From the NCBI RefSeq assembly GCF_021155765.1, contig NC_060118.1, forward strand, positions 2,852,001-2,916,000: a DNA stretch of 64,000 nt, read 5' to 3'. The DNA comes from Diprion similis. Its lineage: Eukaryota > Arthropoda > Insecta > Hymenoptera > Diprionidae. Position numbers and translations under genes: made by a program. Every line of letters starts with the position of its first letter. Positions within the stretch are counted from its first letter, which is position 1. Positions 35,517-59,865 of this stretch are shown here, in pieces. The notes below the pieces were generated by a model. The model worked only from the letters and a program-made list of their open reading frames with translations. It ran no database searches and was not told the origin of the DNA.

Positions 35517-36381
35517 TTAGTACAAACAGTGCTTCAAAAAAGGCCTCGTGAGAATTTTGGGTAGAACGCTATTTTTTTGTTTCATTTCGTGGGAGGGTCG
35601 GCCATAAGTGTGAAACTGAGTTTGTGGGTCGTTAAGGTTAGTAGAACGGCCGTTATATTGAAATTAAGGGTTAAATTCTAATCTAAGGTAGATTATTTTT
35701 TCGATTTATCTCAGTAACCGTGAGGCTAACAAAAATTTTGTATAGAGCTTTTTGTAGGTGATACAATTATCCATAACCTCTTCCTATAACTTCTTGCGCT
35801 AATATCGATAATAAAAAATTTATAAACAAAAAAAGATGAAAAACTGAGAGATAAAATACTTTGAGGCAAGATTATCAATTAATATGAAATCTGACAATAA
35901 ACATGCTTCTTATCTTTTTTATAGAGCATTTAGTCATAAACGATTTGACGAGTTCCATCTTTTTATTCGGTTTGTTTTCCTTGATTCTTACGGTTATTTA
36001 ATCCCATTCTTTGTTCTTCATTTAATCCAAACGGAATAAATTCGAGCCCCTTTCCTTTTTTATTTATTCATAAAAGTTAATGATAATAATCTTCAATTTA
36101 GAAATTTGTAAAAATGCAAAAATTATATGATAATTAAATTCTTCATTATTCTTAATTGAGAAAACAGTGTTGTCTCTTGGAAGTTTATTCGTTCTCTTTT
36201 TGGTTTGAAAAGTATTCATATTGCTCATCAATTATTGGAATTTATTATTTGACGTTCAGGTTAATTATTTCTTATTTAATTAATATGAATTAAATTTAAT
36301 TAATTTGAATTGACTTCATAATTCAAAATTGTTTCTAATTGAGAATTTTTAAATTAAATGATTTATTTGAATTCATTCAGA

Positions 36382-36823
36382 TGTTACGTCCGACGTCCTG
36401 CCTCACGTCTCTCCCACCTTCCTCGACGCTTGTCTTTACCTACCATTCCCACATTCCATATCTTGTCATCCTATTTCCATCTTGGCTTACACCACTCGCT
36501 ATCGCCCTTACCTTGCTATTTCGATCCCCCTCTACCCTGTATCCTCGCTCATTTTCTCATGCAAAAGACTCACTCTCATTCCAACGCTCTTACCTCTTAC
36601 ATTCAACTTCAACTTCCGTTCCCCAAAACCATTGTCTCAACTACTCCTCATCGACTTCACTCAATTTCCAAATCAAAATAAAAGTTATAATCATTCTGTA
36701 ATTACTGTTCTTTCCCTTCCGTTCCCTGAACGAAAACGGCGACGACTACGAACCTACAAAAATAGCACCCGAACCAACACCATCGGGTGGGTACATGGAC
36801 TGCCGTCCCCCTGTACCGTAACA
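36382..36823 (+). repeat. Gypsy 5' LTR (442 bp)
   Basis: TGTTACGTCCGACG to CCGTAACA. The following TTCTGGTGGCAGCGG is in the position of the primer-binding site. Confidence 0.96.
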
Positions 36824-36880
36824 TTCTGGTGGCAGCGGTTTTGCCGTCGACCTACCCTTTGTTCAGTGCTTCGGAAAATC

Positions 36881-37146
36881 TACGCAAGAAAAGTATTAAT
36901 ACGCAAAACTCCCGATATCATATCAATAAGTGATAGCCACGTAGAGAGTGTTCGCCGGCAAATCAAGTGCGTACCTGACAAATTCAGAACCCGCAACGAA
37001 CTGTGCAACGAGTGGAAATATACGACGCAAGAAAAGTGTTAATACGCAAAACTCCCGATATCAAATCAATAAGTGATAGCCACGTCAAGAGTGTTCGCCG
37101 GCAAGTCAAGTGTGAACCTGACAAATTCAGAACCCGCAACGAACTA
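36881..37146. repeat. 143-bp duplication in the gypsy leader
   Basis: CGCAAGAAAAGT followed by ACTCCCGATATCA and GTGTTCGCCGGCAA occurs twice, with starts at about 36,884 and 37,027. It lies in the untranslated leader, where packaging or dimerisation signals would be expected; whether it has such a role is not known. Confidence 0.85.
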
Positions 37147-37511
37147 AATATACGGACGACAGCCGATCTATACCATACATCACCTTTTGGAACCCAAAAT
37201 TGTGATTAGCCCCCACCCGTTTCTGGACGCCTGCGACGCTGGAACAAGAATTTGGACCCAAGATTGGCATCACTCAGATACCTGGAACACCAAACCGAGA
37301 CTCTTCAACACGCAACGGACTTCCCCGCCTACACCCTCCTCTTGCCGACGGACGACGTGCATCACTTCTTCAAGTCTCACCTGCCTTCAGCCGCCTACAA
37401 CCATGCTGTACCTTGCGTTTGTGTTCATCTTTGCTCTGTAAGTTCGTTGTAATCCTTAGTAATAAGTTGATATTTCATCCCCGTACCCATTGCCCATCTA
37501 CGAAAATCGAT

Positions 37512-38630
37512 ATGGCACCAACTAGTGAGACCGGTTCATCTTTTTGGTCAGTAAAAGACGTCTTACCGACGATCCCTGCATTCGATGGCAAAAACATGCC
37601 TTTTGACCAATTTGTGGAACAATTGCGCCACGTGGAAACCCTCACTAGAGCTTCAGACAAAATGACCCTTGCTAAATTTGCACAATCAAAAATTACCGGC
37701 CCCGCTTCCCAATATTTAGTAGGCATCAATTGCAACGACGTCGAAGACCTTATAACGGCCCTCAGCCGAGCATACCGTCCAGACATCCCCGTACGTCAAT
37801 TGTCAATTCAATTAGATAGAATTACCCAACAACCGCGTGAGCGCGTCATCGATTACTCATGCAGAATAAGAGTAATATCAAACGAAATAAGCAAAGCTAT
37901 CGAAAAAAAATACCCGCCAGACATAGCAAGCGCTTTGCTAAATGACTTAAGAAAGGACACTGCTAGAACATTCATTAGAGGGCTTAGACCAGAATTAGAG
38001 TGGAGAATAGCTACCATCAGACCACTCCCTACCTTTGATATCGCCGTCAGCGTCGCCGAAAACGAGGAGACCGAGTTAAATAACCGTCAAATGCAACGCT
38101 TTGCACAATATTGTACTCCTCTTACACCTATGTATCCCCCAATTTCCGGCTCTGCCTGCCAAAACGATACCCCTCCACCTCAGGTATCCATAACCCCCTC
38201 CCTCATCCCCCCTCTAATGTCATTGCCCACACCTGGTTACGCGCATCAGCAAGCGCCCGGTATCGAACCCATGTCCTACGCCCAAGCGCTCGGTGCAAGC
38301 ACCCTCGTGCCTCCCGCAGATCGAACGAGGACCTCGCCGACTATTTGCCAATTCTGCAACCACCGAGGTCACCTGATCACGGAATGCCATCGCCTGCAAA
38401 ATACAAGATACTGTACCAAATGTCGCAGAATGGGCCACTTTTACAATGAGTGCAACCAACCCAGCAGAAGCGACAAATTGTACTGCGATAACTGTAAGCG
38501 CAGAGGCCACACATCAGACCAATGTAGATCTCCCCCGCGTGATAACCAAAACCATGTAAGTTCGAATCAAGATTTAAACGGCAACACTGCCCGCGGGGAG
38601 AACGCGCCCGCGAGCTATGCAAACAACTAG
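37512..38630 (+). CDS. gag: Gypsy Gag with three zinc knuckles
   Basis: The start at ATG 37,512 (MAPTSETGSSFW) is preferred because upstream in-frame residues look untranslated. The 372-residue product has a gypsy capsid region (VLPTIPAFDGKNMPFDQFVE, and RVIDYSCRI further on). A Pro-rich linker follows, then three CCHC knuckles: CQFCNHRGHLITEC, CTKCRRMGHFYNEC and CDNCKRRGHTSDQC. Gag should form the virus-like particle and bind the element RNA. The last ~20 codons overlap pol in the -1 frame, and the slippery heptamer at 38,573-38,579 lies in that overlap. Confidence 0.92.
   Translation: MAPTSETGSSFWSVKDVLPTIPAFDGKNMPFDQFVEQLRHVETLTRASDKMTLAKFAQSKITGPASQYLVGINCNDVEDLITALSRAYRPDIPVRQLSIQLDRITQQPRERVIDYSCRIRVISNEISKAIEKKYPPDIASALLNDLRKDTARTFIRGLRPELEWRIATIRPLPTFDIAVSVAENEETELNNRQMQRFAQYCTPLTPMYPPISGSACQNDTPPPQVSITPSLIPPLMSLPTPGYAHQQAPGIEPMSYAQALGASTLVPPADRTRTSPTICQFCNHRGHLITECHRLQNTRYCTKCRRMGHFYNECNQPSRSDKLYCDNCKRRGHTSDQCRSPPRDNQNHVSSNQDLNGNTARGENAPASYANN
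38573..38579 (+). promoter_or_regulatory. -1 ribosomal frameshift site T TTA AAC
   Basis: In the Gag frame the codons are GAT TTA AAC, giving the classic X XXY YYZ heptamer T TTA AAC. Slipping one base back enters exactly the pol frame, which is open from about 38,545 onward. Twelve bases downstream, CGCGGG (38,592-38,597) can pair with CCCGCG (38,607-38,612) to make a GC stem. The motif and frames are seen directly; function is inferred from known retroviral and coronaviral sites. Confidence 0.75.
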
Positions 38631-41600
38631 CGTTCCGATCCACAAGACACATCTTAATAACAGCTTCAGCTGATCCCCCTTTAATTTCAATCGATACCCC
38701 TGAATTGACAAAGATCTCTAAATTTAGTATCGACACCGGTGCAGACGTAAACTTAATCAAAGAAAGTTGCGTTAAGCCCTTCGTACGACGCACCACAGAC
38801 GAACGTTTGACATTGACTGGTATAACGGACGAAAAGACGGAAACCATCGCAAAAACGGAAATACGCTTTAATAACAACTCCCATACCTTTCACTTGGTCC
38901 CTGATTCATTCCCAGTCCCACATGACGGTATTTTAGGCCAACCCTTTTTACGAAAAGAGAAAGCAACTATCTCGTTCAACTCAAACTCGGTAATGCTTGG
39001 ATCCTCATTGCCAATCCACTTCAACAAAATCGAACAACCACCTCCTGAAACCGCACGTGTTATTACAATACAGGCCCGCACCGCGAAGGTCATCCCGATA
39101 ATAGTTGCAAACCCAGATATCAAAGTAGGCTACCTTAAACACATTAATTTAGGCAACAATGTTCTTTGTGGTGAAGCAATAGTTCGAAATCAGAACGGCA
39201 TCGCTTATTCCTACGTGTTCAATTGCAACGAATCTGTCGTAGAGATAGCATCTCCAACGGTAACCCTGGAAGAATTCGACGAACCACTGAGCACAGCCAT
39301 GCCCGAAATTAAGTCTACCCCGCCGAATAATTCTGACAAAAATAATGGACAAAAATCCCCCCTTCCTACCCAAACCACTTCTCATAATAATTCATTAATT
39401 CTTTCCACTAATAATCACATATCCCGTCCGCCCCATTACCCCTCCTCCAACCCCCGCCAGCTCACTGACCTCGCACATCAGCAACCTGAGCCCCGCATAC
39501 CTGATAACAGTGCACCTCCTCGTGGCGCCGTAACAGTACTCTTGACTGACAGTAGGTCAGAGAGATTGGACACCCTAAAGAATAGTGTGTGCCTCGATCA
39601 TCTAAATGACACCGAAAAACAATCAACACTCGACCTGCTAACAGAATCTAACCATCTTTTCTATCTCCCGGGAGATAAATTAGGCCATACCAATTTAACC
39701 CATCACACTATCCCCACGACGGACGACACACCAATTCACACCAAACAATATCGTTTCCCAAAAATCCACAAAGATGAAATCGAATCCCAGGTCAATAAAC
39801 TCCTTCGGCAAGACCTTATTAAACATTCCGCATCTCCTTATAATTCTCCGGTTTGGATCGTCCCCAAAAAACCCGATATTGACGGTAATAAACGATGGCG
39901 CATGGAGATCGACTACCGAAAGCTCAACGAAAAAACAATCGGCGACGCCTATCCAATGCCCGACATCACCGAAATTCTTGATCAACTTGGCTCAGCTAAA
40001 TATTTCTCTACATTCGACCTTGCTTCCGGCTTTCATCAAATTCCCATGCACCCCGATCACAGTGCAAAAACTGCGTTTTCGACGCCCCGGGGTCACTATG
40101 AATTCTCCCGAATGCCCTTCGGACTAAAAAACGCCCCTGCCACGTTCCAAAGGCTCATGGATCAAGTCCTGCTAGGCTTACAAGGCAATGAGATGTTCGT
40201 ATATTTGGATGACATAGTTATTTACGCTCGAAATTTACAAGAACATGAAATTAAATTCAGAAAATTGATGAAAAGACTAACTGAAGCCGGCTTGACTCTG
40301 CAGTCAGACAAATGCCAATTCCTGCGCAAAGAAGTCGTTTACCTTGGTCACCTTATCACTGAGTCAGGAGTTAGACCTGACCCTGGGAAGTTAGTAGCTG
40401 TGAAAGAATATCCTGTCCCGAAAAATCCCAAAAATGTTAAACAGTTCCTCGGTCTTTTGGGTTATTATTGCAGGTTTGTCCCAAATTTGGGAAAAATTGC
40501 AAAATGCCTCACTAATCTAACCAAGAAGGATACCCCTTTCATTCGGACATCCGAACACCAATCTGCCTTCGAAACCTTACGTGATTGTTTATGCAAAGAG
40601 CCAATTCTCCAATACCCGGACTTCAGCAAGCCGTTTACGCTCACTACCGACGCGTCAAAATTCGCCATCGGTGCGGTTCTGAGTCAAGATAAGAACGGTG
40701 CCGACTTACCAGTAGCGTACGCATCCCGAGCACTCAAATCCGCTGAATTAAACTACTCGGTGCCCGATAAAGAATTTTTAGCCGCCTACTGGAGCATCAA
40801 CCACTTCCGCCCCTACATCTATGGTCAGAAATTTACTTTAGTTACAGACCACGAGCCCCTCAAGTGGGTAAAAAGCGTTAAGAAGCCTAATTCTCGTTTA
40901 TTACGATGGAGTCTAGAACTAGCAGAATACGATTTTGATACCAAACATAAATCGGGAAAAGCAAATGTCAACGCCGATGCTCTATCAAGAAACACGCCGC
41001 CTGACGTCGCACAAATCCTTCCTATAGATGCAAAACGCCCTTGTCCCACGACCGAATCCTCTGACAGCAGACCGAAAAAACGCACCAAAGAGACCCATCA
41101 GTACCTCCGACACCCTCGACAGACCACAGACGAATCTACGAACCCGGCCCCGCTCAAATGCCCAAAAATCTCACAACCCACCTATCAAATGATATACCCC
41201 TCTGATTCTTCTGATCTCTCAGATGACGAATCCAGTGACAAAGAAACCGCAATGCCTTTTAAACCTCCCCCCTCCATCCCACCTCCGCACCCGGTTCATC
41301 CCTACCCGAAACGCCATCGAGAAACGAATTCCTCTACAAACCCTGGACCACGTAAGAGACCACACCTGAGCTACTTTTCGGACACTTCAACTAGCTCAGA
41401 TGACCTACAAGCCCCAGAGACGAACTCAGAAGTTGATGACATTAATTCGTCTACCGATTTACCTAGCTCCCCTCACATTCACAACCCTTCCTATAGCGAT
41501 TTCCTTATAGAATGCGACACGTTCCCTCTTATGCGTAATAAATATATTAAAGAAATAAAAGCCGACCTACTACAGCAAAAAGATAATTTGGCTCACTGCA

Positions 41601-43951
41601 TATCAGCTGATTGCCAAATGTCAAAAGGAATCGCGTCACAGCTAAGAGAACGTAAATTCATAAATCGCGAACAACTCAGAGAATTCAATTCGACTGTGAC
41701 TGACGTTATTTCTACCACTCACGGAAACCGAAAAATTTACAACCTAGTGACAAAGCCAAAGTACAATGACAAACCCTTACCACACGTTTTTTTTGATACC
41801 TTGGTCAACTTTAGGAAAACCTTGGAAGAAGATGGTGTAAGATCTGTCTCAATCCCGTTAATAGGCTGCGGACTCGACAAACTAGAATGGAGCACGGTGC
41901 GCAAAATGATCCACTATATTTTCAAAGATTCAAAAATGAATATCACCGTTTTTCGCCTTGACCCTCCGCTTTCAACCCCCACACACCACGACGACACAAC
42001 GGTGTCCGTTGATAGCGCCTCACCTGACCCCATTCCTTCCACATCTGGCAACCCCGCTCCCTCTCTTCGTCCGCCGCGTAAGAAACCGCAACCTCCGACC
42101 AAATCAGTCGCACCTCTCGCGACCCCACCTCCCCTCCCAGCCACGAACGTCGTCATGCCCCCGCCTGTAGGACCCCCGCGTCGTGCTAAGAGACGCCCAA
42201 CAGCTGTCCCCAGGCCAGCAAACTCTACTACTCACCCCCCTCCACCTCCTCCCTCAGTACCCACACTGGCCTCTGATAACGACAACAGCTCCAACTCGCT
42301 CACGGATACCGAATACAATACATGCGCCCGACAATCCGATTCCGATATGGAAACCACACACTCTGACCATGACATTGATCCCAATGTCGACGACGATTTG
42401 ACCGATACCTCCCACGATTTCACGAACTTTGTTGACAACTTGGACGACATACCGGTAGCTGACAATGTCAAAGACACCAATGATGGTCTTTTGATGCTCA
42501 AAACCAATTATGCACACTTTATATCAACAGACTGCTCTTGGACTAAAGGCATATCATCACAACTTGCCCACGATAATATCGTTGACCCAGATATAGTTAT
42601 GAGGCCCCGTCCACAGAAATTTGATATTATCGAATCCAAGCACAACAACCGACGGATCTTTACTCTAGTACTAAAATCAAAAGAATCAGATAAAAGCAAC
42701 CTATATGATATTTTTCAACTCTTGTCTAAACTGAAAACAGTCTTGACCGATTCAATTCCGAAATCCCTTGCTTTCCCAATAACGGACGATAGTTTAGGTG
42801 GACTCGATCCTCGTGTTATCCGAAAACTCTTATCTTACCTTTTCGCAGACTTACAAATTCAAATCACGCTTTGCCGCAACACGACTGTCACCCCAGACGA
42901 ATGTTTACGTAAAGAAATAATTAAAGAATGCCACGAATCATTAATTGGCGGTCATCAAGGCGTCACAAAAATATGCAACCGCATTAGACAAAAATATTTT
43001 TGGCCGCACATGAAAGAACAAATCCAAGACTTTATAAGAACTTGTGAGAGTTGCCAAAGGAAGAAACTAGTAAGAGTAAAAACCAGGTTGCCGATGGTGA
43101 TAACAGATACTCCTGCCGATGCATTCGACAAAGTAGCACTAGACATCGTTGGACCTCTCCCCCTTACTAAATCAAACAACAAATACCTTTTGACGATACA
43201 ATGCAACTTGACGAAATTTCTGGACGCCATCCCTTTACCTGACGCCACTGCCAAAACAATAGGTGCAGCATTCGCGAAAGAATACATTACACGTTACGGT
43301 GCCCCTCGAGCAATACTTACAGACCAAGGACAGAATTTCATGAGCACAGTCATTAAGCAACTTTGTAAACTCTTTAAAATAAAACAAATTCGAACTACAG
43401 CTTACCGCCCACAATCTAACGGATCGCTAGAACGCAGTCACCTTGTTCTCACTGAACACGTCAAGCATTACACGAATGCTGGGAAAGACTGGGATGAATA
43501 CATCCGCTTTGCTATTTTCTGTTATAACACCGCGAAGCACGAAGGCACTAACTTCACTCCCCATCAGCTAATTTTCGGTTCCCATGCCAGACTTCCGACA
43601 GACGCGAACCCTGCCAGCGCTTACACCCGTTCCTACGATTCGTTCCTTCTAGATTTAATCTCCAACCTGTCCACCATACGAAAAAACGCCGCGGCTAACC
43701 TCATTTTAGCAAAGCACCGTTCCAAGACGTACTACGACCGTCGTACCAATAACCAAAATTTCGAAGCAGGCCAAAAGGTCTATCTACTAAACGAAACCCG
43801 ATCTAAATTTGACGACCACTATAAAGGAGCATATACGATCAAGCGCATAATTGACGATATCAATGCCGAAATTTTCATCACCCCCCATAAGACCAAAATT
43901 GTCCATCTGAATAAACTCAAATTAGCACAGGAAGAAAGTGATTCAAATTAA
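38582..43951 (+). CDS. pol: Gypsy Pol: PR-RT-RNase H-macro-macro-integrase
   Basis: Entered by -1 shift; codon numbers here count from the first codon after the overlap usable as start (38,705). Protease DTGAD is at residues 10-14 and RT has YLDD at 500-503. RNase H runs from TLTTDASKFAIGAVLS (about 644) to NVNADALSRN (about 757). A Pro/Ser-rich linker follows, then macro module 1 (about 929-1089) with HCISADCQMSKGIA (964-977), K1017 and PLIGCGLDKLEW (1051-1062). After a second Pro-rich linker comes macro module 2 (about 1240-1400). Integrase has the H2C2 finger ending CESCQRKK, LDIVGPL, LTDQGQNF and AYRPQSNGSLERS. At ~1,750 residues it is far longer than usual for gypsy pol (about 1,000-1,200). 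All key polymerase and integrase residues are present. Confidence 0.93.
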   Translation, partial: QHCPRGERARELCKQLAFRSTRHILITASADPPLISIDTPELTKISKFSIDTGADVNLIKESCVKPFVRRTTDERLTLTGITDEKTETIAKTEIRFNNNSHTFHLVPDSFPVPHDGILGQPFLRKEKATISFNSNSVMLGSSLPIHFNKIEQPPPETARVITIQARTAKVIPIIVANPDIKVGYLKHINLGNNVLCGEAIVRNQNGIAYSYVFNCNESVVEIASPTVTLEEFDEPLSTAMPEIKSTPPNNSDKNNGQKSPLPTQTTSHNNSLILSTNNHISRPPHYPSSNPRQLTDLAHQQPEPRIPDNSAPPRGAVTVLLTDSRSERLDTLKNSVCLDHLNDTEKQSTLDLLTESNHLFYLPGDKLGHTNLTHHTIPTTDDTPIHTKQYRFPKIHKDEIESQVNKLLRQDLIKHSASPYNSPVWIVPKKPDIDGNKRWRMEIDYRKLNEKTIGDAYPMPDITEILDQLGSAKYFSTFDLASGFHQIPMHPDHSAKTAFSTPRGHYEFSRMPFGLKNAPATFQRLMDQVLLGLQGNEMFVYLDDIVIYARNLQEHEIKFRKLMKRLTEAGLTLQSDKCQFLRKEVVYLGHLITESGVRPDPGKLVAVKEYPVPKNPKNVKQFLGLLGYYCRFVPNLGKIAKCLTNLTKKDTPFIRTSEHQSAFETLRDCLCKEPILQYPDFSKPFTLTTDASKFAIGAVLSQDKNGADLPVAYASRALKSAELNYSVPDKEFLAAYWSINHFRPYIYGQKFTLVTDHEPLKWVKSVKKPNSRLLRWSLELAEYDFDTKHKSGKANVNADALSRNTPPDVAQILPIDAKRPCPTTESSDSRPKKRTKETHQYLRHPRQTTDESTNPAPLKCPKISQPTYQMIYPSDSSDLSDDESSDKETAMPFKPPPSIPPPHPVHPYPKRHRETNSSTNPGPRKRPHLSYFSDTSTSSDDLQAPETNSEVDDINSSTDLPSSPHIHNPSYSDFLIECDTFPLMRNKYIKEIKADLLQQKDNLAHCISADCQMSKGIASQLRERKFINREQLREFNSTVTDVISTTHGNRKIYNLVTKPKYNDKPLPHVFFDTLVNFRKTLEEDGVRSVSIPLIGCGLDKLEWSTVRKMIHYIFKDSKMNITVFRLDPPLSTPTHHDDTTVSVDSASPDPIPSTSGNPAPSLRPPRKKPQPPTKSVAPLATPPPLPATNVVMPPPVGPPRRAKRRPTAVPRPANSTTHPPPPPPSVPTLASDNDNSSNSLTDTEYNTCARQSDSDMETTHSDHDIDPNVDDDLTDTSHDFTNFVDNLDDIPVADNVKDTNDGLLMLKTNYAHFISTDCSWTKGISSQLAHDNIVDPDIVMRPRPQKFDIIESKHNNRRIFTLVLKSKESDKSNLYDIFQLLSKLKTVLTDSIPKSLAFPITDDSLGGLDPRVIRKLLSYLFADLQIQITLCRNTTVTPDECLRKEIIKECHESLIGGHQGVTKICNRIRQKYFWPHMKEQIQDFIRTCESCQRKKLVRVKTRLPMVITDTPADAFDKVALDIVGPLPLTKSNNKYLLTIQCNLTKFLDAIPLPDATAKTIGAAFAKEYITRYGAPRAILTDQGQNFMSTVIKQLCKLFKIKQIRTTAYRPQSNGSLERSHLVLTEHVKHYTNAGKDWDEYIRFAIFCYNTAKHEGTNFTPHQLIFGSHARLPTDANPASAYTRSYDSFLLDLISNLSTIRKNAAANLILAKHRSKTYYDRRTNNQNFEAGQKVYLLNETRSKFDDHYKGAYTIKRIIDDINAEIFITPHKTKIVHLNKLKLAQEESDSN
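41489..41971 (+). other. TARG1-like macrodomain in gypsy pol (module 1)
   Basis: The segment matches the OARD1/TARG1 branch of macrodomains in motif order: a short N-terminal strand ending in a polar residue, HCISADCQMSKGIA (ADP-ribose-binding loop), a YNLVTK strand, then PLIGCGLDKLEW. It ends in an ITVF strand. TARG1 catalysis uses Lys84 and Asp125, 41 residues apart. Here K1017 and D1058 are also 41 apart and in the same motifs. By homology it should bind ADP-ribose and may remove it from acidic residues. This is inferred, not shown. Confidence 0.82.
42440..42895 (+). other. Second, diverged macrodomain-like module (module 2)
   Basis: It repeats the layout of module 1: HFISTDCSWTKGIS (from residue 1271), TLVLKSK (Lys 1324) and GGLDPRVIRKLL (Asp 1368), then QITL. 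The Gly-Cys-Gly loop is replaced by DDSLGG, so binding may be altered or lost. It looks like an internal duplication of module 1 that has diverged, separated by a Pro-rich linker. Confidence 0.65.
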
Positions 43952-44030
43952 ACCACCTTTAGAAGCCAACAGCCGTATATTATCAATCTACCCGTAACTG
44001 CATCATATTACGCCTCATGCCCTGAATGAC

Positions 44031-44459
44031 GTGCTCAAACGCTCAGCCGATCTAAGCACACACTATCGTACTCAAAGTAACATGCATCGCCTCACCACCA
44101 ACCTCAGCTATGGCGGAATCGTCTTCGCGCCCCTCTCAGCAGTTTTCTTTTGCTACAAACTCTCATTATTTAGAAGAATCTCAAAAGTATACTCTTCCTG
44201 TAAATCCAGGCGAATACGCCACAACCTCGACTCACGTCATCCAAGACCCCAAATCCTTTCCCACCATGCCATTTCCCACCCTCACCTAGAAAATAGGTCA
44301 TTCCCTAAGGACCTGTCTCCTCGCACTTCGTCGCTGCCCCGAGCTCATTCAGAAATTGAAATGATGGAAATGTCCAAGCTACGACAACACCCACGTAAAC
44401 TGCCCCGCGATCAGAGCCTTGACGCTAGTTCCGACTCCCTCTTCATCTGGACAGACTAA
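44031..44459 (+). CDS. Short third ORF of the gypsy element, unknown
   Basis: A 142-codon frame follows pol by about 80 bases, with the first ATG somewhat inside. It has a short hydrophobic stretch (GGIVFAPLSAVFF) and a basic, Ser/Pro-rich remainder (RISKVYSSCKSRRIR, then SPRTSSLPRAHS). It sits where envelope genes of errantivirus-type elements lie, but it is far too short and lacks a signal peptide and a cysteine pattern. I do not recognise it. Confidence 0.3.
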   Translation: MLKRSADLSTHYRTQSNMHRLTTNLSYGGIVFAPLSAVFFCYKLSLFRRISKVYSSCKSRRIRHNLDSRHPRPQILSHHAISHPHLENRSFPKDLSPRTSSLPRAHSEIEMMEMSKLRQHPRKLPRDQSLDASSDSLFIWTD

Positions 44460-44551
44460 GCCCTCTACTACATATTTATAAGAACATATCCATTGTTATG
44501 CCCAAATATCATTCAATAAAAATGTCTCAAATTACGCTATTATAATAACCG

Positions 44552-44885
44552 TATACACTATCTACAATTATACCCCTGACATTGTCATTTAACTTCGACT
44601 TGTATCTACAATATCTACAATCAAAACCCTAAAAATTATAATTTAACTATAATGGTATATATACTATCTACAATTATACCCCTGACATTGTCATTTAACT
44701 TTGATTGTATCTATACTCTCTACAATCAAAACCTTAAAAATTATAATTTAACTATAATCGTATATATACTATCTACAATTATACCCCTGACATTGTCATT
44801 TAACTTTGACTTGTATCTATAATATCTACAATCAAAACCCTAAAATTATAATTTAATTATAATTGTATCTTTACAATATGTAACT
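44552..44885. repeat. ~105-bp tandem repeat in the gypsy 3' region
   Basis: Three copies of a unit with CTATCTACAATTATACCCCT and GACATTGTCATTTAACTT start at about 44,558, 44,664 and 44,769. AT-rich and non-coding, ahead of the polypurine tract. Confidence 0.88.
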
Positions 44886-45121
44886 ACTACACACTTAAAT
44901 TATAAGAACATACCTATTGTTACGAAAAAAAAAAAAAAACATTTCTGCTAAAAATGTATACTAACCCGCTTAAACGCGCATTAACCCTAGGCGCTATACT
45001 CTTTAAGGCAAACTATATTGTAATCTTTCGTAAGTGAGTCGATACATTACCCAAAAATTCGGTTTTCCTTCGAACATTCGGCTCTGTACCCTCACCGAAT
45101 GTTCTTCCCGAAGGGGGGGCG

Positions 45122-45563
45122 TGTTACGTCCGACGTTCCGCCTCACGTCTCTCCCACCTTCCTCGACGCTTGTCTTTACCTACCATTCCCACATTCCATA
45201 TCTTGTCATCCTATTTCCATCTTGGCTTACACCACTCGCTATCGCCCTTACCTTGCTATTTCGATCCCCCTCTACCCTGTAACCTCGCTCATTTTCTCAT
45301 GCAAAAGACTCACTCTCATTCCAACGCTCTTACCTCTTACATTCAACTTCAACTCCCGTTCCCCAAAACCATTGTCTCAACTACTCCTCATCGACTTCAC
45401 TCAATTTCCAAATCAAAATAAAAGTTATAATCATTCTGTAATTACTGTTCTTTCCCTTCCGTTCCCTGAACGAAAACGGCGACGACTACGAACCTACAAA
45501 AATAGCACCCGAACCAACACCATCGGGTGGGTACATGGACTGCCGTCCCCCTGTACCGTAACA
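45122..45563 (+). repeat. Gypsy 3' LTR (442 bp)
   Basis: Same length and ends as the 5' LTR, with about four substitutions between them (for example GACGTCCTGCC versus GACGTTCCGCC). Followed by the CAGA duplication. Confidence 0.96.
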
Positions 45564-46044
45564 CAGATATAATTTTTTGGTTTTAAGATTCTGAATTATT
45601 TTGAAACTGTAAAAAAAGAATTTCTTAGTTATTTTTCACAATATTTAAATTTTAAATATAATATCATTTTTACATTTTTATAAATTTCTAAATTGAAAAT
45701 TTTTATTATTTACTTTTATGAATAAATAAAAAAAGAAAGGAGCTCGAATTTATTCCTTTTGAATTAAACGAAGAAGAAAGAATAGGATTTAATAACCATA
45801 AGAATCAAGAAAACCAAACCGAATCAAAAAAATGGAACTCGTCAAATTGTTTATAACAAAATGCTCTATAAAAAGGTAAGAAGCATGTTTATTGTCAGAT
45901 TTCAAAGTAATTAATAATCTTGCCTCAAAGTATTTTATCCTTCAATTCTTCATCTTTTTTTGTTTGTAAATTTGTTATTATTGATATAAGCCCAAAAAGT
46001 TACAGGAAAAAGTTAGGGATAATTGTATCATGTACAAAAAATTT

Positions 46045-46698
46045 TGCAACGTGAAGACGTTTAAAAGAAATAAGTGCGATTCGAGTCCGCGTACCCCTCG
46101 CAAGAGGGGAACCGGGAGGGGAATAGGCCCAGTGAGCCACCTTTGACCATTAGTCAGTATTCGTCACTCGAAGGTGTAACCAGCGCGTATTGTGATCTCG
46201 GAGTCAAGTGTACCCGTGAGTGAGTGTGTGTGCAGTGCGCTACGGCTATCAGAAAGTTCGGACAGGGTGCCCGTGAGCTACATCTCAGGGATTACCTGGT
46301 ATAAGGTACGAAATAAATTGATGTCCAAAACCTAATTAATTCACCCGTGTCGAATTTATCAGATTCCATTCCGTTCCTCCTCGCACGCTCTTGAGATTAT
46401 CCTCGAACCTCGCTCGGTAGCCGTGTTTCAGTCACGGACACACGACCCTCGGGCCGCCGACTTAGGTAGTTGGGGGCAAATATTCTAGTTTGGCTCGGAG
46501 TTAGATAAGACCAATCATATCCGACCTGGCGCTCAACATTGAAGAGGAGAAAGGTGAGAAAAAGCTTCGTGCCGGCGAGCCGTGGATCGCCGGCGCACGA
46601 CAAATCGGCCCGTTTGTGCCCCTGCATGTCTTCGCTTCATTGCCTTGGCGATTACACGTAGGGTAAAGAAAGAGTATTTTTGTCACAATTTTACCACA
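46045..46698 (+). mobile_element. Probable solo LTR
   Basis: A 654-bp segment starting TGCAACGTGAAG and ending TTTTACCACA interrupts the right arm of the inverted-repeat element and has no counterpart in the left arm. AAATTT flanks both sides (46,039-46,044 and 46,699-46,704). TG..CA ends, an AATAAA near 46,311 and higher GC suggest an LTR left by recombination. The family is not identified and the duplication lies in AT-rich DNA. Confidence 0.45.
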
Positions 46699-47229
46699 AA
46701 ATTTTTGTTAGCCTCACGGTTACTGAGATAAATCGAAAAAATCATTGGAAGCCTTAATTTCAAGATAGCGGCCGCTCTACCACCCTTAACGTCCGACAAA
46801 CTGAGTTTCACACTCATTGCCGACCCTTCCACGAAATGACAAAAAAAAATAGCGTTCTACCCAAAATTCTCAGCAAAATCACCATTTGCCCGTACTACAT
46901 ATGTATAATATAGGTAAAGTGATAACCCTGCCTCGTTACTCACGACCGATGGATATTCAAATTGCATGGACATGTATACCTCTTTGGGAAATTTCGACCG
47001 CCATACAACTTTTTTCTTTTCCATTACTATTATAACTTTACTCGCCTATTCGTATTTAAATTATTATAAAAGCTATCAAACGCATTATAAATAATTTACA
47101 GTCAACTCTATGTTTGTAGATGCAGCAAAGGTGATGTTCAGAGGAAAACACTCATCAGATAAAATGATCACTGGTGCGATTCAGGACTGGCTGAAATTAG
47201 CAAAGAACCGTTACACCTATGCGAACTGA

Positions 47230-51135: not shown

Positions 51136-51202
51136 TTGATAACAACTCTTTTTTTTTTTTTGTTTTTTTTTTTTTTTTTTTCCCTAACCCTTCTCCCACA
51201 TA
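51136..51202. other. T-rich spacer between LINE ORF1 and ORF2
   Basis: Contains T-runs of about 12 and 20 bases. The runs may affect how ORF2 is translated, or be unstable in assembly. Confidence 0.6.
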
Positions 51203-54200
51203 ATGGATCGCAATTATACTAAATTTTTGCCTACTAAGCTTAAGATAACCTTTTGGAATGCACGCAGCGTTTGCAATAAAAGGGAGGAAATTGAAAAAAT
51301 AATACAAGACCTAGATATTCTGATTTGCGTTGAGTCCTGGCTTAATAATAACGTCAAATTCCAATTTCCCGGTTTCAATACAATAAGACAAGACAGACAG
51401 TATGCATCTGGTGGCGGAATTGTTATTCTACTTCGCAAATCACTTAGGTACATTGTAATTAAGAACATACATCAGATCAATGTTCAAACCGAAATACTTG
51501 GCATCGAAATCACTAATTTAAAAGTTCCTCAGACTATAATTGTTTGCTACAAGCCTCCAGGCATTGATCTGACTGACGCTGAATGGGGCTCCCTTGTCGG
51601 CAATTCCAAAATCACATCAAACTGCTTATTAATTGGCGATTTCAACTCACACAATGAGGCTTGGAACTGTATAAATACGGATAATAACGGGAAAAATTTG
51701 CTAGAACAAGCAGAGAACCACAATTTATTCCTGCATAACACAAACACTATAACCCGATTCAACACCAACACAAATACAAACACTAATATAGATCTTGTTT
51801 TTACGACAATGAACATAGCACCTAATGTAAAAGTAAAAGTTACCGAGGACTCTCTGGGTTCCGATCACTTCCCCATACAAATAACGATTGACACTGAAAA
51901 GGAGATCTATTTCCAGAAAACCTTTAAAATACAGTCTAAACGCACTAATTGGAACGCTGTACGGGAAATACTTGAAAAAGAATATGCTAAATTTCTGCCC
52001 AACTTATATGACGAATTACCACCCACGGAAAAATACGACCTGTTCACACAAATTGTTAAAGAGGCTGTCATTGCATGTACACCAAAAAAAAAAAAGCTTA
52101 CCCAAAAAAATCACAGAAACCCAGTTCCATGGTGGGACAATGATTGTAATCGAGCCAAAAGACTGAGACAAGCAGCTTACAAGAAATGGGTATACACGGG
52201 TAACATTTCTGATCTCATTGATTATAAGAAAAGAAGAGCTACGACTAAAAAGTTATTCAAACAAAAGAAAAACGAATGTTATCGCAAATTTACTGAATCT
52301 GTCAATTTTAACGTGAACCTTAGTTACACATGGAACACTGCAAAAATTTTGAAAAATAAATGGATTAAAGTTAATCCCACGAGTAACGAAGAAAATGGTC
52401 AAAAAAGACAAAAGATTGAACTTGCTCTGAACAACCTGTGTCCGGTGTGGGTTGAAACCAATCCTACTGATATTCCACAAGCACCAGTAAATGAGTTTTT
52501 TGACGAAGCATTCACTTACACCGAATTCAATACAGCATTGAAATCCCGCAGTAACAAATCGGCTGCGGGCATGGATGGTATAAACTACGAAGTACTCAAT
52601 AATCTGCCGATCAAATACCACCTTATACTGCTAGACATACTAAATGAACTATTCGCCAAAGATATGTATCCTGCAAGCTGGATCAACACGTATCTACACT
52701 TCGTCGAAAAACCCAGTGGTAAGGGCCTTACGCCCTTGGCCCTCACGTCTTCTATTTGCAAAATTTTTGAACTAATGGCATCTAATAGACTTCGATGGTG
52801 GGTTGAGCGTCACAATTTACTACCTGACAACCAAACTGGTTTTCGCAAAGGTCTCTCCTGCGCAGATAACTTGGTCACCCTTAAGCTAGACGTAGAAAAT
52901 GCTCTCGACAAGAATGACCACGTTATGGCTGTTTTTCTTGACGTTAGCAACGCATTCAACGACGTTCACAGTCAGGTACTATTGCATAAACTAGCTCACG
53001 TTGGATGCTCTCCTAAAGTTCTTAGATTTGTTCACTTTCTCATTCATAAAAGGTTTATTTACACCGAAATCAATGATATCTACCCAAGAGAGACTTTTAA
53101 AGGCGTACCTCAAGGGGGTGTCTTGAGCCCTTTGTTGTATTTGATATACGTAGCCGATACCTTTACTGATATAGGAAACGATATTAAAGTACTTCAGTTT
53201 GCTGACGACGTAGTCATCTACCTTAGGACACCTGACCCCGTGGATGCTAGGCCTACTATAGAGAAAGCTCTTGATAAGGTTACTCATAGACTCAAAGAAT
53301 CTGGTCTAGAGGTATCTCCTGATAAGACTCGCTACGTTCATTTTAATAAAAAAGAGATTAACCCCGGCTCATCCGAGATTACTTTCGTTGGCAAAAATAA
53401 TGTCTCCACTCAATATGCTAAGTTCTTAGGAATTTACTTTGACTATCAACTCAATTTTGACAGGCATATACGATACGTTTTAGAAAAAACCAATAGATCT
53501 TTAAACATCATTAAGTTTCTTAGAGGCATCTGGTGGGGTGCACATCCTGAGACCCTATTGACGTTTTACAAAAGTTATGTTAGAACTATTATTGATTATG
53601 GTTCGTTCATTTACTTTCCGACCCAAAAAACAAGAAAAGAAAAGCTCGAAAGGCTGCAATTCTCGGCCATCAGAATGGCACTAGGATTGAGGTTGAGCAC
53701 ACCCACTAATGTACTTTTGGCTGAATCAAAAATGGTTGCCATACAACACAGGACAAAAACACTATGTAAAAACTTTCTGTTGAAAGCATTTAGCGTTAAA
53801 CGTTCTATTTCTAGACAAACTATCAAAGAATACGTACCGAGCTTTATTAAGGATCGCAGAAAAAAAGTCAATTTACTGACGGAATGTATTAAAAGTGTAG
53901 TTAGTATTGAACACCTGATCCACGTTGATGAATCACGAGGAATTTACACTTACGATTATTCAATTACAAAAACGGGTATCAGTACTGACATTGACATAGG
54001 TAAAAGGCTCCAAAAAAGCGACAAACCATATGAACTATGGCAGGAAATATATGGTTCAGAAGACTCTCTAAAAATTTTCACTGACGGCAGCAAAAGTACA
54101 AACAGCCTATCGGTAGGTACTGCTTGTATATGTCCTGAGTTAAAATTCGAGAAAACACGAAGTGTCAACAATAAAACCTCAATATTCACCGCAGAGTTAA

Positions 54201-54946
54201 TCGCAATTGCTGATGCTATGGGTCTTGCACTTCGCCACACCAACAGACACATACACATATTTACTGATTCACTAAGCGCTGTTCAAACCCTCAAGAACCC
54301 TACAAACAAAGCTGAAATTAATAGATTTACGCTCGAGATACGGAGTAAAATCGTTTCTTTCCTCAACAACAGTGTTGACAAATGTATGGTCAATATACAC
54401 TGGATACCTGCCCATGTCGGCATAGAGGGTAATGAAATTGCGGATAAACAAGCAAAAGTAGCTGCAAACCAACGACCATCATCATTGAAATTGCCCTATA
54501 CGGACCTCAAACCCTTTTTTAGACAACTTGACAGAAATGAAACAATTAAAATGACGATAAACCAAAGTACCAACAAAGGCCTGACATACTTTTCATCCTT
54601 TTATAAACCAACCATGAGACCTTGGTTCAAAGGACTAAAGCATAGTAGAGATTTTATAGTTACACTCTGCAGGTGTCGCAGTGGGCATGTTAATCTTAAT
54701 GAATCCTTATCCAAGATAAAAGTCATACCTAATGCAAATTGTGACTGTGGCTGCCCATCCCAGAACCTAAATCATGTAATATGGCAGTGTCCGACATACG
54801 ATGCACAGAGAGTTGCTCTACTAAAAGACCTGGCTAAGATGAAACAGTTTCCCCCATTCAATGTAGAATGCTACTTATCTACACCTGATATTAAAGTAAT
54901 GCTAGTCATACACAACTATCTAAATAAATGCAAGCTGCGAATCTAA
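51203..54946 (+). CDS. LINE ORF2: endonuclease-RT-RNase H
   Basis: An intact 1,247-residue frame from ATG 51,203. An apurinic-like endonuclease opens it (ITFWNARSVCNKREEIEKI, LLIGDFNSHNEAW, LGSDHFPIQI). RT contains KSAAGMDGINYEVL, VFLDVSNAFNDV, VPQGGVLSPLLY and FADD (residues 666-669). RNase H has IFTDGSKSTNS, FTAELIAIADAM, IFTDSLSAVQTL and IHWIPAHVGIEGNEIADKQA. The C-terminus has a CRCRSGH motif and CDCGCPSQNLNHVIWQC knuckle. All catalytic motifs look complete, so the protein could be active in trans even though ORF1 is broken. Confidence 0.95.
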   Translation: MDRNYTKFLPTKLKITFWNARSVCNKREEIEKIIQDLDILICVESWLNNNVKFQFPGFNTIRQDRQYASGGGIVILLRKSLRYIVIKNIHQINVQTEILGIEITNLKVPQTIIVCYKPPGIDLTDAEWGSLVGNSKITSNCLLIGDFNSHNEAWNCINTDNNGKNLLEQAENHNLFLHNTNTITRFNTNTNTNTNIDLVFTTMNIAPNVKVKVTEDSLGSDHFPIQITIDTEKEIYFQKTFKIQSKRTNWNAVREILEKEYAKFLPNLYDELPPTEKYDLFTQIVKEAVIACTPKKKKLTQKNHRNPVPWWDNDCNRAKRLRQAAYKKWVYTGNISDLIDYKKRRATTKKLFKQKKNECYRKFTESVNFNVNLSYTWNTAKILKNKWIKVNPTSNEENGQKRQKIELALNNLCPVWVETNPTDIPQAPVNEFFDEAFTYTEFNTALKSRSNKSAAGMDGINYEVLNNLPIKYHLILLDILNELFAKDMYPASWINTYLHFVEKPSGKGLTPLALTSSICKIFELMASNRLRWWVERHNLLPDNQTGFRKGLSCADNLVTLKLDVENALDKNDHVMAVFLDVSNAFNDVHSQVLLHKLAHVGCSPKVLRFVHFLIHKRFIYTEINDIYPRETFKGVPQGGVLSPLLYLIYVADTFTDIGNDIKVLQFADDVVIYLRTPDPVDARPTIEKALDKVTHRLKESGLEVSPDKTRYVHFNKKEINPGSSEITFVGKNNVSTQYAKFLGIYFDYQLNFDRHIRYVLEKTNRSLNIIKFLRGIWWGAHPETLLTFYKSYVRTIIDYGSFIYFPTQKTRKEKLERLQFSAIRMALGLRLSTPTNVLLAESKMVAIQHRTKTLCKNFLLKAFSVKRSISRQTIKEYVPSFIKDRRKKVNLLTECIKSVVSIEHLIHVDESRGIYTYDYSITKTGISTDIDIGKRLQKSDKPYELWQEIYGSEDSLKIFTDGSKSTNSLSVGTACICPELKFEKTRSVNNKTSIFTAELIAIADAMGLALRHTNRHIHIFTDSLSAVQTLKNPTNKAEINRFTLEIRSKIVSFLNNSVDKCMVNIHWIPAHVGIEGNEIADKQAKVAANQRPSSLKLPYTDLKPFFRQLDRNETIKMTINQSTNKGLTYFSSFYKPTMRPWFKGLKHSRDFIVTLCRCRSGHVNLNESLSKIKVIPNANCDCGCPSQNLNHVIWQCPTYDAQRVALLKDLAKMKQFPPFNVECYLSTPDIKVMLVIHNYLNKCKLRI

Positions 54947-55916: not shown

Positions 55917-58900
55917 TCAAGTTTCATAATCTCTGAATCTTACTGGAGGCTGCCTTAGTCTCTGAGGTCTCTCACCCCGATTCTGTTCATCACCAATCAC
56001 AGCATTTGGCTCATCAGCAATCACAACATTTGGCTCATTTCTCATTTGATTTTCAATTATTGAATCATATATGCTTACATGAGTTCTACATGGGAACTCA
56101 TTCTTTGATTCTCTTATATGTATTTTATTTCTACGATAAACCTGACCAGTTTCACTTTGTTGAACAAAGTACGACCTTGGGGCACTACTTTTACCTATTA
56201 TCTTTGCAGGCTCCCACATCCTTCCTCTCCGAAGTAAAACACTTTGATCTAGCTCTAGCTCAGGCCTTTCTTTACTTTTCTTATCAAACTGTTTCTTTAC
56301 TATCTGTTGCTTATGCTTTAATTTTGTACATACTTTCTTATTATCTATGACTTTAGGTTCTAATGATTTTTGGATTATTGGTAACTTCGTTTTCAACCTG
56401 CGATTCATCATCAATTCTAATGGGGTATAGTCAATTCCAGTTATTTTAGTGTTTCTATAATTAAGCAATGCTACATCTAAATCACAACCTTTTTTTAGTA
56501 TCGCTTTTGCTATTTTTACACCACTCTCTGCAAATCCATTACTTTGTGGGTATCTCGGACTGCTATTAATTATCTGAAATTCAAATTCTTTTGCAAATTG
56601 TTTAAATGCATATAACGCATATGGCATGTTGTCCGCTATTAGCATATCAGGTATCCCATGGGTTGCAAAGCACACTTTAAATTTCTGTATTAATTCGTCA
56701 GCAGTTTTACCCGATGTTGGTATCACTTCAAGCCATTTTGAAAAATAATCGAATATTATTAAGTAATTTTTTCCTGCATGTTCACACATGTCTGATGCGA
56801 TTTTGGCAAAAGGTCTATCCAATATTTCATGATTGATGAGTGGTTCTTTTGTGTTATTTGGCAAATATCGCTCACAACTCTTACACTCGGATACAAACTC
56901 AATTATGTCTTTTGTCATTTCTGGCCAAAACAATGCCTCTTTCAGTCTTTCTGTGGTTTTATTTATCCCTACATGCCCTTCATGAGCTAATCTCATCATC
57001 TCTAATCTTAATTTACTTGGTACGATTAATCTATCCTTATACAACAAGATATCCTCGACTAGACTAATTTCACTTTTATAGCTCTTGAATTTTTGGACTT
57101 CATCTGGTACTTTTGATGGCCATCCATCAATGCAGAATTTTTTTAGTAATTTCAACACTGGTTCCTCTTCGATTCTTTTTTGGAACTCTGATTTTTTAGC
57201 ATCCGTTATGTTCACTATTGCTTGGACATTGTGTATTACTTCTAGCATTGTTGGATCGTCATCTATGACATCACTCAAATAATTTCTAGACAACAAGTCC
57301 GCCACATACATTTGCTTTCCTGGCATGTATTGCAAATTTATCAGATATTTATTGAGTTTCGTTTTTATTCTTTGAAGCCTCGGTGACACTATGTCAGCTA
57401 ATTTTTTATTCATTATCGCAACTAGCGGCTTATGGTCCGTCCACACATTAACATGTCTCCCGTAGATGTAATAGTGAAATTTTTTGACAGCGAACCAAAC
57501 CGCTAAGAACTCTTTTTCTATCTGAGCATAGTTTTTTTCTGCATCCGTTAAGCTCCTTGAAAAAAATGATACAGGCTTATTATTTTGTAACAGACAGCAA
57601 CCCAAACCATCTTTTGATGCATCAGTTTGTATTGTTATTTGTTTTTTACAATCAAAGTTTGACAGTACTGGCGCTCGCGTCAGTAATTGTTTCAACTCTG
57701 ACAGTGCTTTTTCATGTTTACTGGTCCATGCAAAAACTACATCTTCTTTTAGTAAGTTTCTGAGTGGAGCAGATAGCTCTGACAATTTTGGCATGAAACT
57801 TCGGAAGTAATTGAACATCCCCATAATTTTTTGTAAGCCATTTTTGTCTGTTGGTGCTTTTAACTGTAAAATTGCTCTAATTCTCTCAGGATCTATTTCT
57901 GTGCCTTGAGCTGAAAAAATGTGACCCAGATATTTAACCTTATCAACTTTATATTGTACTTTATTGGGGTTGAATCTAACATTTCTTTCTCTTGCTCTGT
58001 TTAACACTTTCTCTAAAATTTTATCATGTTCTTCCTCACTTGTTCCTGCAATTAACAAGTCATCAAAGTAAATTATTACACCCTCTATGTCCCCAAAATT
58101 TTCCTGATTTATTTTTTGAAATAGTTCCGGTGCCATATTTAACCCAAAAGGCATTCTGCAAAATTTATAGTATCCAAACGGTGAGCTGAATGTACACAAA
58201 TCACTTGACTTTTCATCCAATTCTACATGGTAATACCCATCTTTTAAATCTAGAACTGTAAACCAAGTTTTTCCTGTTAGTTTTGAACAAACTTCTTCAA
58301 CCGTTGGTATTAGAAAGTATTCTCGCTTTATATATTTGTTTAAATCTGCTGGATCTAAACACACCCTCAGTGTTTTATTTTGTTTCTCCACAATAACTAA
58401 ATTACTTGCCCACTCAACTTGGCCTGTAACTTTTTGTATGATGCCTCTAGATTCCAAATCATCTAAAGTTTGTTTCAGTTTTTCCTTTATTGCTAACGGG
58501 ACTCTACGAGGCGCCCTAACAACTGGTATTGCATCTTCTACCAGTTTGATTGCACATTTTTTATTGAACTTACCTATTCCTTCAAAGAGATCTCGGTGTC
58601 TATTAATAAGTCCATTTTTTTCTTTATATTCTACATTTTCAATCCTTTTTACTAACCCTAGCTGAGTACAGGACTCTAGTCCTAGCAACGGTGTCGAATC
58701 ATTATCAACTATTACAAAATTCAGACATTTTCTTGTTCCTTTGACTTCGCAAATTAATTTTACAGTTCCAAGTGGTGACCATTTCGTACCTCCATACGCT
58801 TCTAATACTATTTTGGTTTTTTCAATTTTTTCTTTACCACCCAGCGACTCTAACACTTGTTTAGGTATTATATTTACCTGTGCGCCTGTGTCTAACTTAA

Positions 58901-59759
58901 ATTTTATAATCTTGTCACTTACTTTTAGATTTTCATACCACGATAACGACTCTACTTTCGATATTACATTTATCACAGACTTGACTAGCAGCGTCTCTAT
59001 CTCGTCACTGTTTTCTTCGTCCGCCTCTTCAAGCTCCTGAACGATCTTCACTCTGCAAGCGACTTTCCAGTGATTTAATTTCCCGCATCGAGCACACTTT
59101 TTTCCAAATGCTGGGCACTGGTTGACTCCATGTTTGGTTTGACATCTCGTGCATAAAAATGTGTTATGTTTTTCTTTTGACTTTTTGACGTACTCTTTTT
59201 TCTTGACAACACTGACTTTATTTTCTTCCTGCACAATTTTAACTTGATCCCTTGTTACTTCACAGGATCTACAGATATTTATTACCTTCTCTAAGGTCAC
59301 CTCCTCTAACCCGATGAGTCGTTCCTGCAATTCTCTGTCGGCAATTCCGAGTACAATTCGGTCCCGAAGCATCTCATCTTCACTATTTATAAATTCACAT
59401 TTTTTTATAATTTTTTTTAGGTCAGTAACAAAGTGATCAAATGGCTCATTTTCTTCTTGTTTTCGGTTGTAGTACAGGAATCTTTCGTAAATAATATTTT
59501 TCTTTGGGTTCACATATTTCTCAAATTCTTGTACTACGCGGTTGAATTCTTTTCTTTCTTCATTTGACAGTTTAAAATTATTGAAGATATCAATTCCTTC
59601 TTCACCCATAAAATTCAGAAGTAACGCTACCTTAACCTCATCTGTTGAGTTATTTTTTTCCGCAGCTAGCAAATAAATTTCAAAATGTTGTTTAAATTTC
59701 TTAAAATTTTCCAATATGTTGCCTTCAAATTTACATGGACCCGGTATTCTCGCGTCCAT
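55917..59759 (-). CDS. gag-pol: Gag-pol of the minus-strand gypsy element
   Basis: A 1,280-residue single frame starting MDARIPGPCKFEG. Gag has a capsid-like N-terminus (FKKFKQHFEIYLLAAE) and two CCHC knuckles (CTRCQTKHGVNQC and CARCGKLNHWKVAC). Protease has FKLDTGAQVNIIP. RT has FCRMPFGLNMAPELF and YFDD (near plus-strand 58,070). RNase H has QTDASKDGLGC and MYVADLLSRN. Integrase has the H2C2 finger ending CKSCERYLP, then ASDM, IADNMPY and SPRYPQSNGFAESG. The second integrase motif reads ADNMPY rather than the usual SDNGPQF, but the Asp is kept. Gag and pol share one frame, so no frameshift is needed. Confidence 0.95.
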   Translation of the reverse strand: MDARIPGPCKFEGNILENFKKFKQHFEIYLLAAEKNNSTDEVKVALLLNFMGEEGIDIFNNFKLSNEERKEFNRVVQEFEKYVNPKKNIIYERFLYYNRKQEENEPFDHFVTDLKKIIKKCEFINSEDEMLRDRIVLGIADRELQERLIGLEEVTLEKVINICRSCEVTRDQVKIVQEENKVSVVKKKEYVKKSKEKHNTFLCTRCQTKHGVNQCPAFGKKCARCGKLNHWKVACRVKIVQELEEADEENSDEIETLLVKSVINVISKVESLSWYENLKVSDKIIKFKLDTGAQVNIIPKQVLESLGGKEKIEKTKIVLEAYGGTKWSPLGTVKLICEVKGTRKCLNFVIVDNDSTPLLGLESCTQLGLVKRIENVEYKEKNGLINRHRDLFEGIGKFNKKCAIKLVEDAIPVVRAPRRVPLAIKEKLKQTLDDLESRGIIQKVTGQVEWASNLVIVEKQNKTLRVCLDPADLNKYIKREYFLIPTVEEVCSKLTGKTWFTVLDLKDGYYHVELDEKSSDLCTFSSPFGYYKFCRMPFGLNMAPELFQKINQENFGDIEGVIIYFDDLLIAGTSEEEHDKILEKVLNRARERNVRFNPNKVQYKVDKVKYLGHIFSAQGTEIDPERIRAILQLKAPTDKNGLQKIMGMFNYFRSFMPKLSELSAPLRNLLKEDVVFAWTSKHEKALSELKQLLTRAPVLSNFDCKKQITIQTDASKDGLGCCLLQNNKPVSFFSRSLTDAEKNYAQIEKEFLAVWFAVKKFHYYIYGRHVNVWTDHKPLVAIMNKKLADIVSPRLQRIKTKLNKYLINLQYMPGKQMYVADLLSRNYLSDVIDDDPTMLEVIHNVQAIVNITDAKKSEFQKRIEEEPVLKLLKKFCIDGWPSKVPDEVQKFKSYKSEISLVEDILLYKDRLIVPSKLRLEMMRLAHEGHVGINKTTERLKEALFWPEMTKDIIEFVSECKSCERYLPNNTKEPLINHEILDRPFAKIASDMCEHAGKNYLIIFDYFSKWLEVIPTSGKTADELIQKFKVCFATHGIPDMLIADNMPYALYAFKQFAKEFEFQIINSSPRYPQSNGFAESGVKIAKAILKKGCDLDVALLNYRNTKITGIDYTPLELMMNRRLKTKLPIIQKSLEPKVIDNKKVCTKLKHKQQIVKKQFDKKSKERPELELDQSVLLRRGRMWEPAKIIGKSSAPRSYFVQQSETGQVYRRNKIHIRESKNEFPCRTHVSIYDSIIENQMRNEPNVVIADEPNAVIGDEQNRGERPQRLRQPPVRFRDYET

Positions 59760-59865
59760 CTTGTTGTGGAATCACGTGTATCGTTGACGCTCAGTTACTG
59801 TAGACAATTTGATGCACTATTCCTTTCTTTTTTAAACTTTTGACTTCACTTGACCGACTGCGTCA

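Follow-up and report, generated by a model that had tools for sequence, protein, structure and literature searches.

TARG1-type macrodomains in the Pol polyprotein of a Ty3/gypsy retrotransposon clade of the sawfly Diprion similis

Why would a retrotransposon polyprotein carry a domain of the type that removes the ADP-ribose tag in animal cells? The question is raised by a 64,000-nucleotide stretch of Diprion similis DNA (the window; C14:2852001–2916000 of assembly G000, a 269-Mb genome in 60 contigs on which the genome searches were run), in which a Ty3/gypsy element with macrodomains occupies positions 36382–45563. Its pol frame encodes a TARG1/OARD1-type macrodomain (m1; 41543–41956) between RNase H (40619–40930; PF17917, E 2.9e-39) and integrase (H2C2 zinc-binding domain and rve core, 42896–43411; PF17921, E 2.9e-22 and PF00665, E 3.4e-9), and a second, degenerate macrodomain (m2; 42467–42877) lies directly ahead of the integrase. 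Coordinates without a contig name are window positions, and all features of the element lie on the + strand. In the explanation that we consider best, a macrodomain of TARG1 type entered Pol between RNase H and integrase in one Ty3/gypsy clade and has been retained there.

The pol frame contains HCISADCQMSKGIA and PLIGCGLDKLEW, the signature segments of the TARG1 branch of macrodomains, where a first-pass annotation, made from the sequence alone, had placed them. The top PDB match of region 41408–41998 was human OARD1/TARG1 (4j5r; E 1.7e-20, 76.7 bits), in an alignment that covered query residues 48–184 of 197 and included the equivalents of Lys84 and Asp125; with a profile built from five related upstream domains, the OARD1/TARG1 match reached E 2e-30. 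In stop-to-stop pol numbering, the two catalytic equivalents are K1070 (41753–41755) and D1111 (41876–41878), separated by 41 residues as in TARG1. The first-pass annotation had named the same pair and spacing as K1017 and D1058, its numbers being 53 lower throughout. The sequence and the modelled fold of m1 were both nearest to TARG1, but these are not independent, since the alignment behind the model included TARG1 relatives. Among PHROGs, m1 matched phrog_335 (called phosphatase; E 5.2e-20), and no relative was found among IMG/VR viral contigs by single sequence or by alignment. Together with the Pfam domain order, these matches confirm m1 as a TARG1/OARD1-type macrodomain between RNase H and integrase, so that the annotated domain, its branch and its location inside a gypsy Pol were all borne out.

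The arrangement recurs across the genome. The m1 search gave 150 scored matches (241 candidates), at least 35 of which were 83–100% identical and covered 142 or all of the 143 query residues, and the m2 search gave at least 131 matches (150 of 188 candidates scored), at least 47 of them at 75–100% identity across 120 or more of 139 residues. In the family of the window element (family A; 30 fetched loci, window included), both m1 and m2 were present at 30/30 loci (m2 partial in L036), as the first-pass annotation had proposed looking for in other gypsy copies; by alignment count, the catalytic Lys was kept in 30/30 and the Asp in 30/30, and stop codons interrupted m1 in two copies and m2 in one. 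The other macrodomain-bearing families (B–F), each assessed on a single representative or a few, have reverse transcriptases 69–78% identical to that of the window and carry macrodomains at the same site, and the upstream domain of the representative aligned for B, C, D and E keeps both Lys and Asp. Long open frames were found in at least eight copies of A, six of C, six of D and four of F. Relatives of the element carry one to three macrodomains: one each in Neodiprion lecontei (P0003) and N. virginianus (P0013), whose gene models are without most or all of the integrase, two in P0012 and three in P0011, the latter two on contigs of ~7.5 kb each. A one-off chimera or an assembly error, for which nothing speaks, is ruled out for practical purposes by the at least 35 near-full-length m1 copies, and is opposed by the long open frames in four families and the Neodiprion relatives as well.

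The macrodomain is not a general gypsy feature either, as six sampled macro-free elements of the same genome and the second gypsy of the window show. No macrodomain match was obtained in L084 and L086 (two of four loci at 60–63% reverse transcriptase identity, themselves at 61–62%), where the gap between RNase H and integrase measures 21 and 46 residues, or in L080–L083 (42–46%; L081 and L082 are closely related to each other), where it measures 70 to 113. The second gypsy-like gag-pol frame in the window (55917–59771, – strand, 1284 aa) has a gap of 91 residues and likewise no macrodomain match. Short TARG1-like matches occur elsewhere in the genome, e.g., at C3:16841312 and C12:1174364.

The first-pass annotation had pictured a single macrodomain; m1 stands, and the element also holds m2, which has a macrodomain fold. 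In the window copy, the GCGLD loop of m2 has become DDSLG, the catalytic Asp is lost and the Lys is kept; PHROGs gave no match, and four residues separate the m2 profile match from the integrase match. A non-canonical integrase-side domain was present in all eight macro-positive groups that could be read before the integrase (A–F, P0011 and P0012), at 4 to 10 residues from the integrase match, with weak detection in E (partial, E 5.6e-5) and D (E 1.3e-7). Family F is represented by L074 and its near relative L076, whose fetched piece did not include the integrase; L076 was dropped as a separate family G and counted with F because its RNase H region is identical to that of F. In this family, about 658 Ser/Thr/Lys-rich residues separate RNase H from the integrase-side domain, and no further macrodomain was found in the 666-residue stretch that follows RNase H. 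The family F domain, used as a query, matched the integrase-side domains of B, C and D (at least 100 matches; 150 of 176 candidates scored) but hit m1 rather than m2 in family A, and weak F-type matches appeared in two further elements (C10:2906599 and C8:946321).

The lack of a detected catalytic domain in family F argues that the integrase-side module may be the older or more basic part. For this reason we retain the alternative, which we regard as rather unlikely, that m2 is at the heart of the arrangement as a site reader, which would anchor the pre-integration complex at some protein or chromatin mark, with m1 secondary. The constant position of the integrase-side domain, the reach of the family F query, the possession of this domain only in F, the purifying selection on m2 described below and a macrodomain tree of 41 rows, in which the integrase-side domains form one clade (98/95), all fit such a site reader. 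Against it stand the several long branches within that clade, the behavior of the F query in family A and the eroded pocket of m2, owing to which m2 may not read ADP-ribose.

Was the domain gained once or twice? In the RNase H-region tree (20 rows), the 14 macro-positive rows lie on one side of a branch (83/85), for which one gain is the simplest reading. In the macrodomain tree, the integrase-side clade groups with the upstream domains of the A, B and C type (96/94), as expected from duplication within the element. The upstream domains of D and E, together with the middle one of P0011, make up a separate clade (99/98) next to the two OARD1 genes of the host (91/97), which suggests a second capture of a TARG1-type domain; in that case, P0011 would combine the three types. 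An approximately unbiased (AU) test did not reject a single clade of all retrotransposon macrodomains (p 0.177, or 0.141 without long branches), and after removal of the long branches, the link of the D/E clade to the host OARD1 genes became an unresolved fork. Athalia rosae P0014, annotated as OARD1-like, groups with the upstream domains of P0011 and P0012 (96/93). The two OARD1/TARG1-like host genes are neighbors (L078, C2:13509259–13509830; L079, 13511756–13512686), and the match to each is split into two segments, with gaps of 185 and 535 bases. The break falls just after the catalytic Lys and is interpreted as an intron that divides the domain; the unbroken element copies would thus fit capture from RNA.

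Both m1 and m2 are under purifying selection. Ratios of nonsynonymous to synonymous divergence (dN/dS) are given only for computable pairs, as synonymous sites were saturated between most families. Relative to L087, L089 and L090, which are copies of one diverged subfamily and not independent of each other, dN/dS was 0.16–0.19 for m2 (dS about 0.75), 0.28–0.40 for m1 (dS 0.22–0.30) and 0.23–0.28 for linker 2 (41972–42466; by reading proline-rich, then acidic), with Fisher tests on rounded counts giving p below 1e-11 for m2 and 0.007 to 0.0001 for m1; partial decay of the compared subfamily copies raises these ratios. In the same three copies, m1 has diverged far less than m2 from the window copy, and their differing dS suggests recombination between subfamilies or mosaic elements. 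The ratios relative to L088 were 0.31 for m1 and 0.43 for linker 2. Between families, m1 of D versus E gave 0.18, the computable RNase H pairs 0.15–0.20 and the integrase-side pairs 0.28–0.84, the last near saturation. Among recent family A copies, the corresponding polymorphism ratio (pN/pS), pooled over 29 copies each compared with the window, whose own changes are thus counted repeatedly, was 0.55 for m1, 0.47 for m2, 0.55 for linker 1 (40991–41542; charged, Ser- and Pro-rich by reading), 0.47 for linker 2 and 0.14 for RNase H. Such linker-like constraint on m1, together with the loss of the m2 Asp and the family without an upstream domain, would agree with the macrodomains being structural passengers, i.e., spacers between RNase H and integrase whose chemistry is irrelevant. 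We hold this to be very improbable, given that Lys and Asp are kept in representatives of all five upstream-domain families despite near-saturated synonymous sites, and that both residues persist in all 30 recent family A copies.

Our favored explanation, to which we assign a probability of about 0.5, is that Pol carries a catalytic-looking ADP-ribosyl hydrolase, m1, and a derived macrodomain, m2, just ahead of the integrase. Within the particle and the pre-integration complex, m1 would accompany reverse transcriptase and integrase, and there it might strip mono-ADP-ribose placed by host transferases on element proteins (Asp/Glu esters) or, alternatively, clear it from element RNA or cDNA (terminal phosphates, thymidine); removal of the tag would leave reverse transcription and integration unblocked. 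m2, whose key pocket residues are lost, would serve the integrase as a docking module for protein, nucleic acid or ADP-ribose. The parts of this explanation differ in strength: m1 is probably an active hydrolase, and m2 more likely than not stays with the mature integrase, whereas an action of m1 against host ADP-ribosylation is proposed tentatively, and so, with like reserve, is the putative docking role of m2. The domain, subfamily and place read in the first-pass annotation held, as did the recurrence in other gypsy copies that it had put up as a check, and the counter-defense or repair role it had offered stays conjectural. Doubtful as a whole is the most far-reaching version. In it, the clade would have taken up the ADP-ribose-removing domain of the host two or more times at one site, most families would retain a predicted active hydrolase, and a duplicate would have become a pseudo-macrodomain linked to integrase, all as a counter-measure to host ADP-ribosylation.

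TARG1 is reported to remove ADP-ribose from thymidine and from the ends of DNA and RNA (PMC8501950). An alternative built on TARG1/DarG chemistry is that m1 frees the cDNA or RNA of the element itself from ADP-ribose on thymidines or terminal phosphates, whether or not a host defense is involved; it overlaps the favored explanation, with the substrate as the sole difference, and we consider it improbable as a separate account. A mammalian case of ADP-ribosylation acting on a retrotransposon is the silencing of L1 by SIRT6 through mono-ADP-ribosylation of KAP1, as reported in a review (PMC4695847).

Several observations weigh against the favored explanation. Family F shows the integrase-side domain only, so that a hydrolase may not be needed in every family, and within family E, copy L071 has LNTK for LITK and copy L070 gave no GCGLD. 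To our knowledge, no ADP-ribosylation defense against sawfly retrotransposons has been described. On the identity of the domain, the significant macrodomain match named as a check in the first-pass annotation was found by the PDB and profile searches, but Pfam Macro alone misses its cut-off for m1 (17.5 bits versus 22; E 0.004); Macro is a broad model, and the family D domain does pass its cut-off in the genome search. As for selection, constraint on m1 does not exceed that on the linkers among recent family A copies, the close family E pair L069–L071 gave a dN/dS of 0.47 for m1, the other computable cross-family m1 pairs 0.25–0.38 (near saturation), and m2 relative to L088 0.52, on 11 changes. 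Finally, a review reports that catalytic residues of the macrodomain are lost in insect-restricted alphaviruses (PMC7729036), so that ADP-ribose removal may matter less in insects.

How does the arrangement compare with known systems? The closest is TARG1/OARD1 (C6orf130) of humans and other animals, with which m1 shares the fold, the signature motifs and the catalytic Lys–Asp pair with its spacing; TARG1 is a cellular single-domain enzyme, whereas m1 is an unbroken part of a retrotransposon Pol. In the DNA ligase III-like proteins P0004–P0008, a TARG1-type macrodomain sits in the same protein as a DNA-joining enzyme or the BRCT portion of one (from their Pfam accessions, presumably BRCT in all and DNA ligase domains in three); by their domains these are not retroelement proteins, and the three placed in the macrodomain tree form a separate branch. 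The chromodomain of chromoviruses is also an accessory module tied to a Ty3/gypsy integrase and is believed to tether the pre-integration complex, but it has a different fold and lies C-terminal to the integrase, whereas m2 precedes it; no chromodomain was among the Pfam matches of 42851–43948 at E up to 1. RNA-virus macrodomains have been studied for removing ADP-ribose added by hosts in defense. They likewise lie inside polyproteins, coronavirus nsp3 combining an enzyme-type MacroD domain with the further macrodomain folds of SUD and alphavirus nsP3 being another example (PMC7729036), but they belong to positive-strand RNA viruses without reverse transcription or integration and appear to be of a MacroD-like class rather than TARG1. 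Enzyme capture by retrotransposons is already known for an AlkB-like m6A demethylase in orchid gypsy elements (PMC9289625) and, recurrently, for DNMT in dinoflagellate and charophyte retrotransposons (PMC5890265). These too are host-type modification enzymes in retrotransposon lineages, but they differ in chemistry, and the sawfly elements carry their copies in tandem within Pol, partly degenerate and with one beside the integrase. No report of a macrodomain in a retrotransposon was among the matches listed from titles and abstract beginnings of open-licence PMC text, subscription papers and repeat databases lying outside this search.

A clade that keeps, duplicates and possibly recaptures TARG1-type macrodomains would indicate a virus-like conflict inside the genome, and the presence of these domains suggests that ADP-ribose tagging may play a part in how jumping genes and their hosts oppose each other. 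Such a clade would tie ADP-ribosylation to reverse transcription or integration in a way that can be tested and would add an unusual integrase-side module, and the families with and without a catalytic copy in one genome provide a natural comparison. If true, the counter-measure reading would be evidence for ADP-ribosylation being used against transposable elements in insects.

The remainder of the element is of Ty3/gypsy type. Its 5′ and 3′ long terminal repeats (LTRs; 36382–36823 and 45122–45563) are 442 bases each, have TG...CA ends (the 5′ LTR starts TGTTAC and ends GTAACA) and are identical at 438 of 442 positions; the four differences suggest a recent insertion. A CAGA target-site duplication flanks the pair at 36378–36381 and 45564–45567, such an LTR pair with a short duplication being expected of Ty3/gypsy. 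The gag gene (37512–38630; 372 aa from the first likely ATG) has three CCHC-like knuckles by reading, with Pfam matches below their cut-offs (Retrotrans_gag, E 0.041; zf-CCHC, E 0.15), and pol (38546–43951) is a single open frame of 1801 aa from stop to stop, at –1 relative to gag with an 85-base overlap. It contains an aspartic protease (DTGAD; 38720–38971), whose RVP match (E 0.0013, 19.5 bits) narrowly misses the cut-off of 20.7, followed by reverse transcriptase (39863–40351; PF00078, E 8.3e-39); the Pfam order of protease, reverse transcriptase, RNase H and integrase fits Ty3/gypsy, the protease being slightly below cut-off. A 121-base duplication lies within the leader (36882–37145), and a 105-base tandem repeat lies 3′ of pol (44547–44862). 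Inverted repeats of 83–88% identity flank the element (35549–36138 and 45651–46872), and it seems to have landed inside the loop of a large palindromic repeat. Elsewhere in the window, by reading only, there are a BEL/Pao-like pol frame (14769–18122) and a LINE-like frame with endonuclease and reverse transcriptase (51188–54946).
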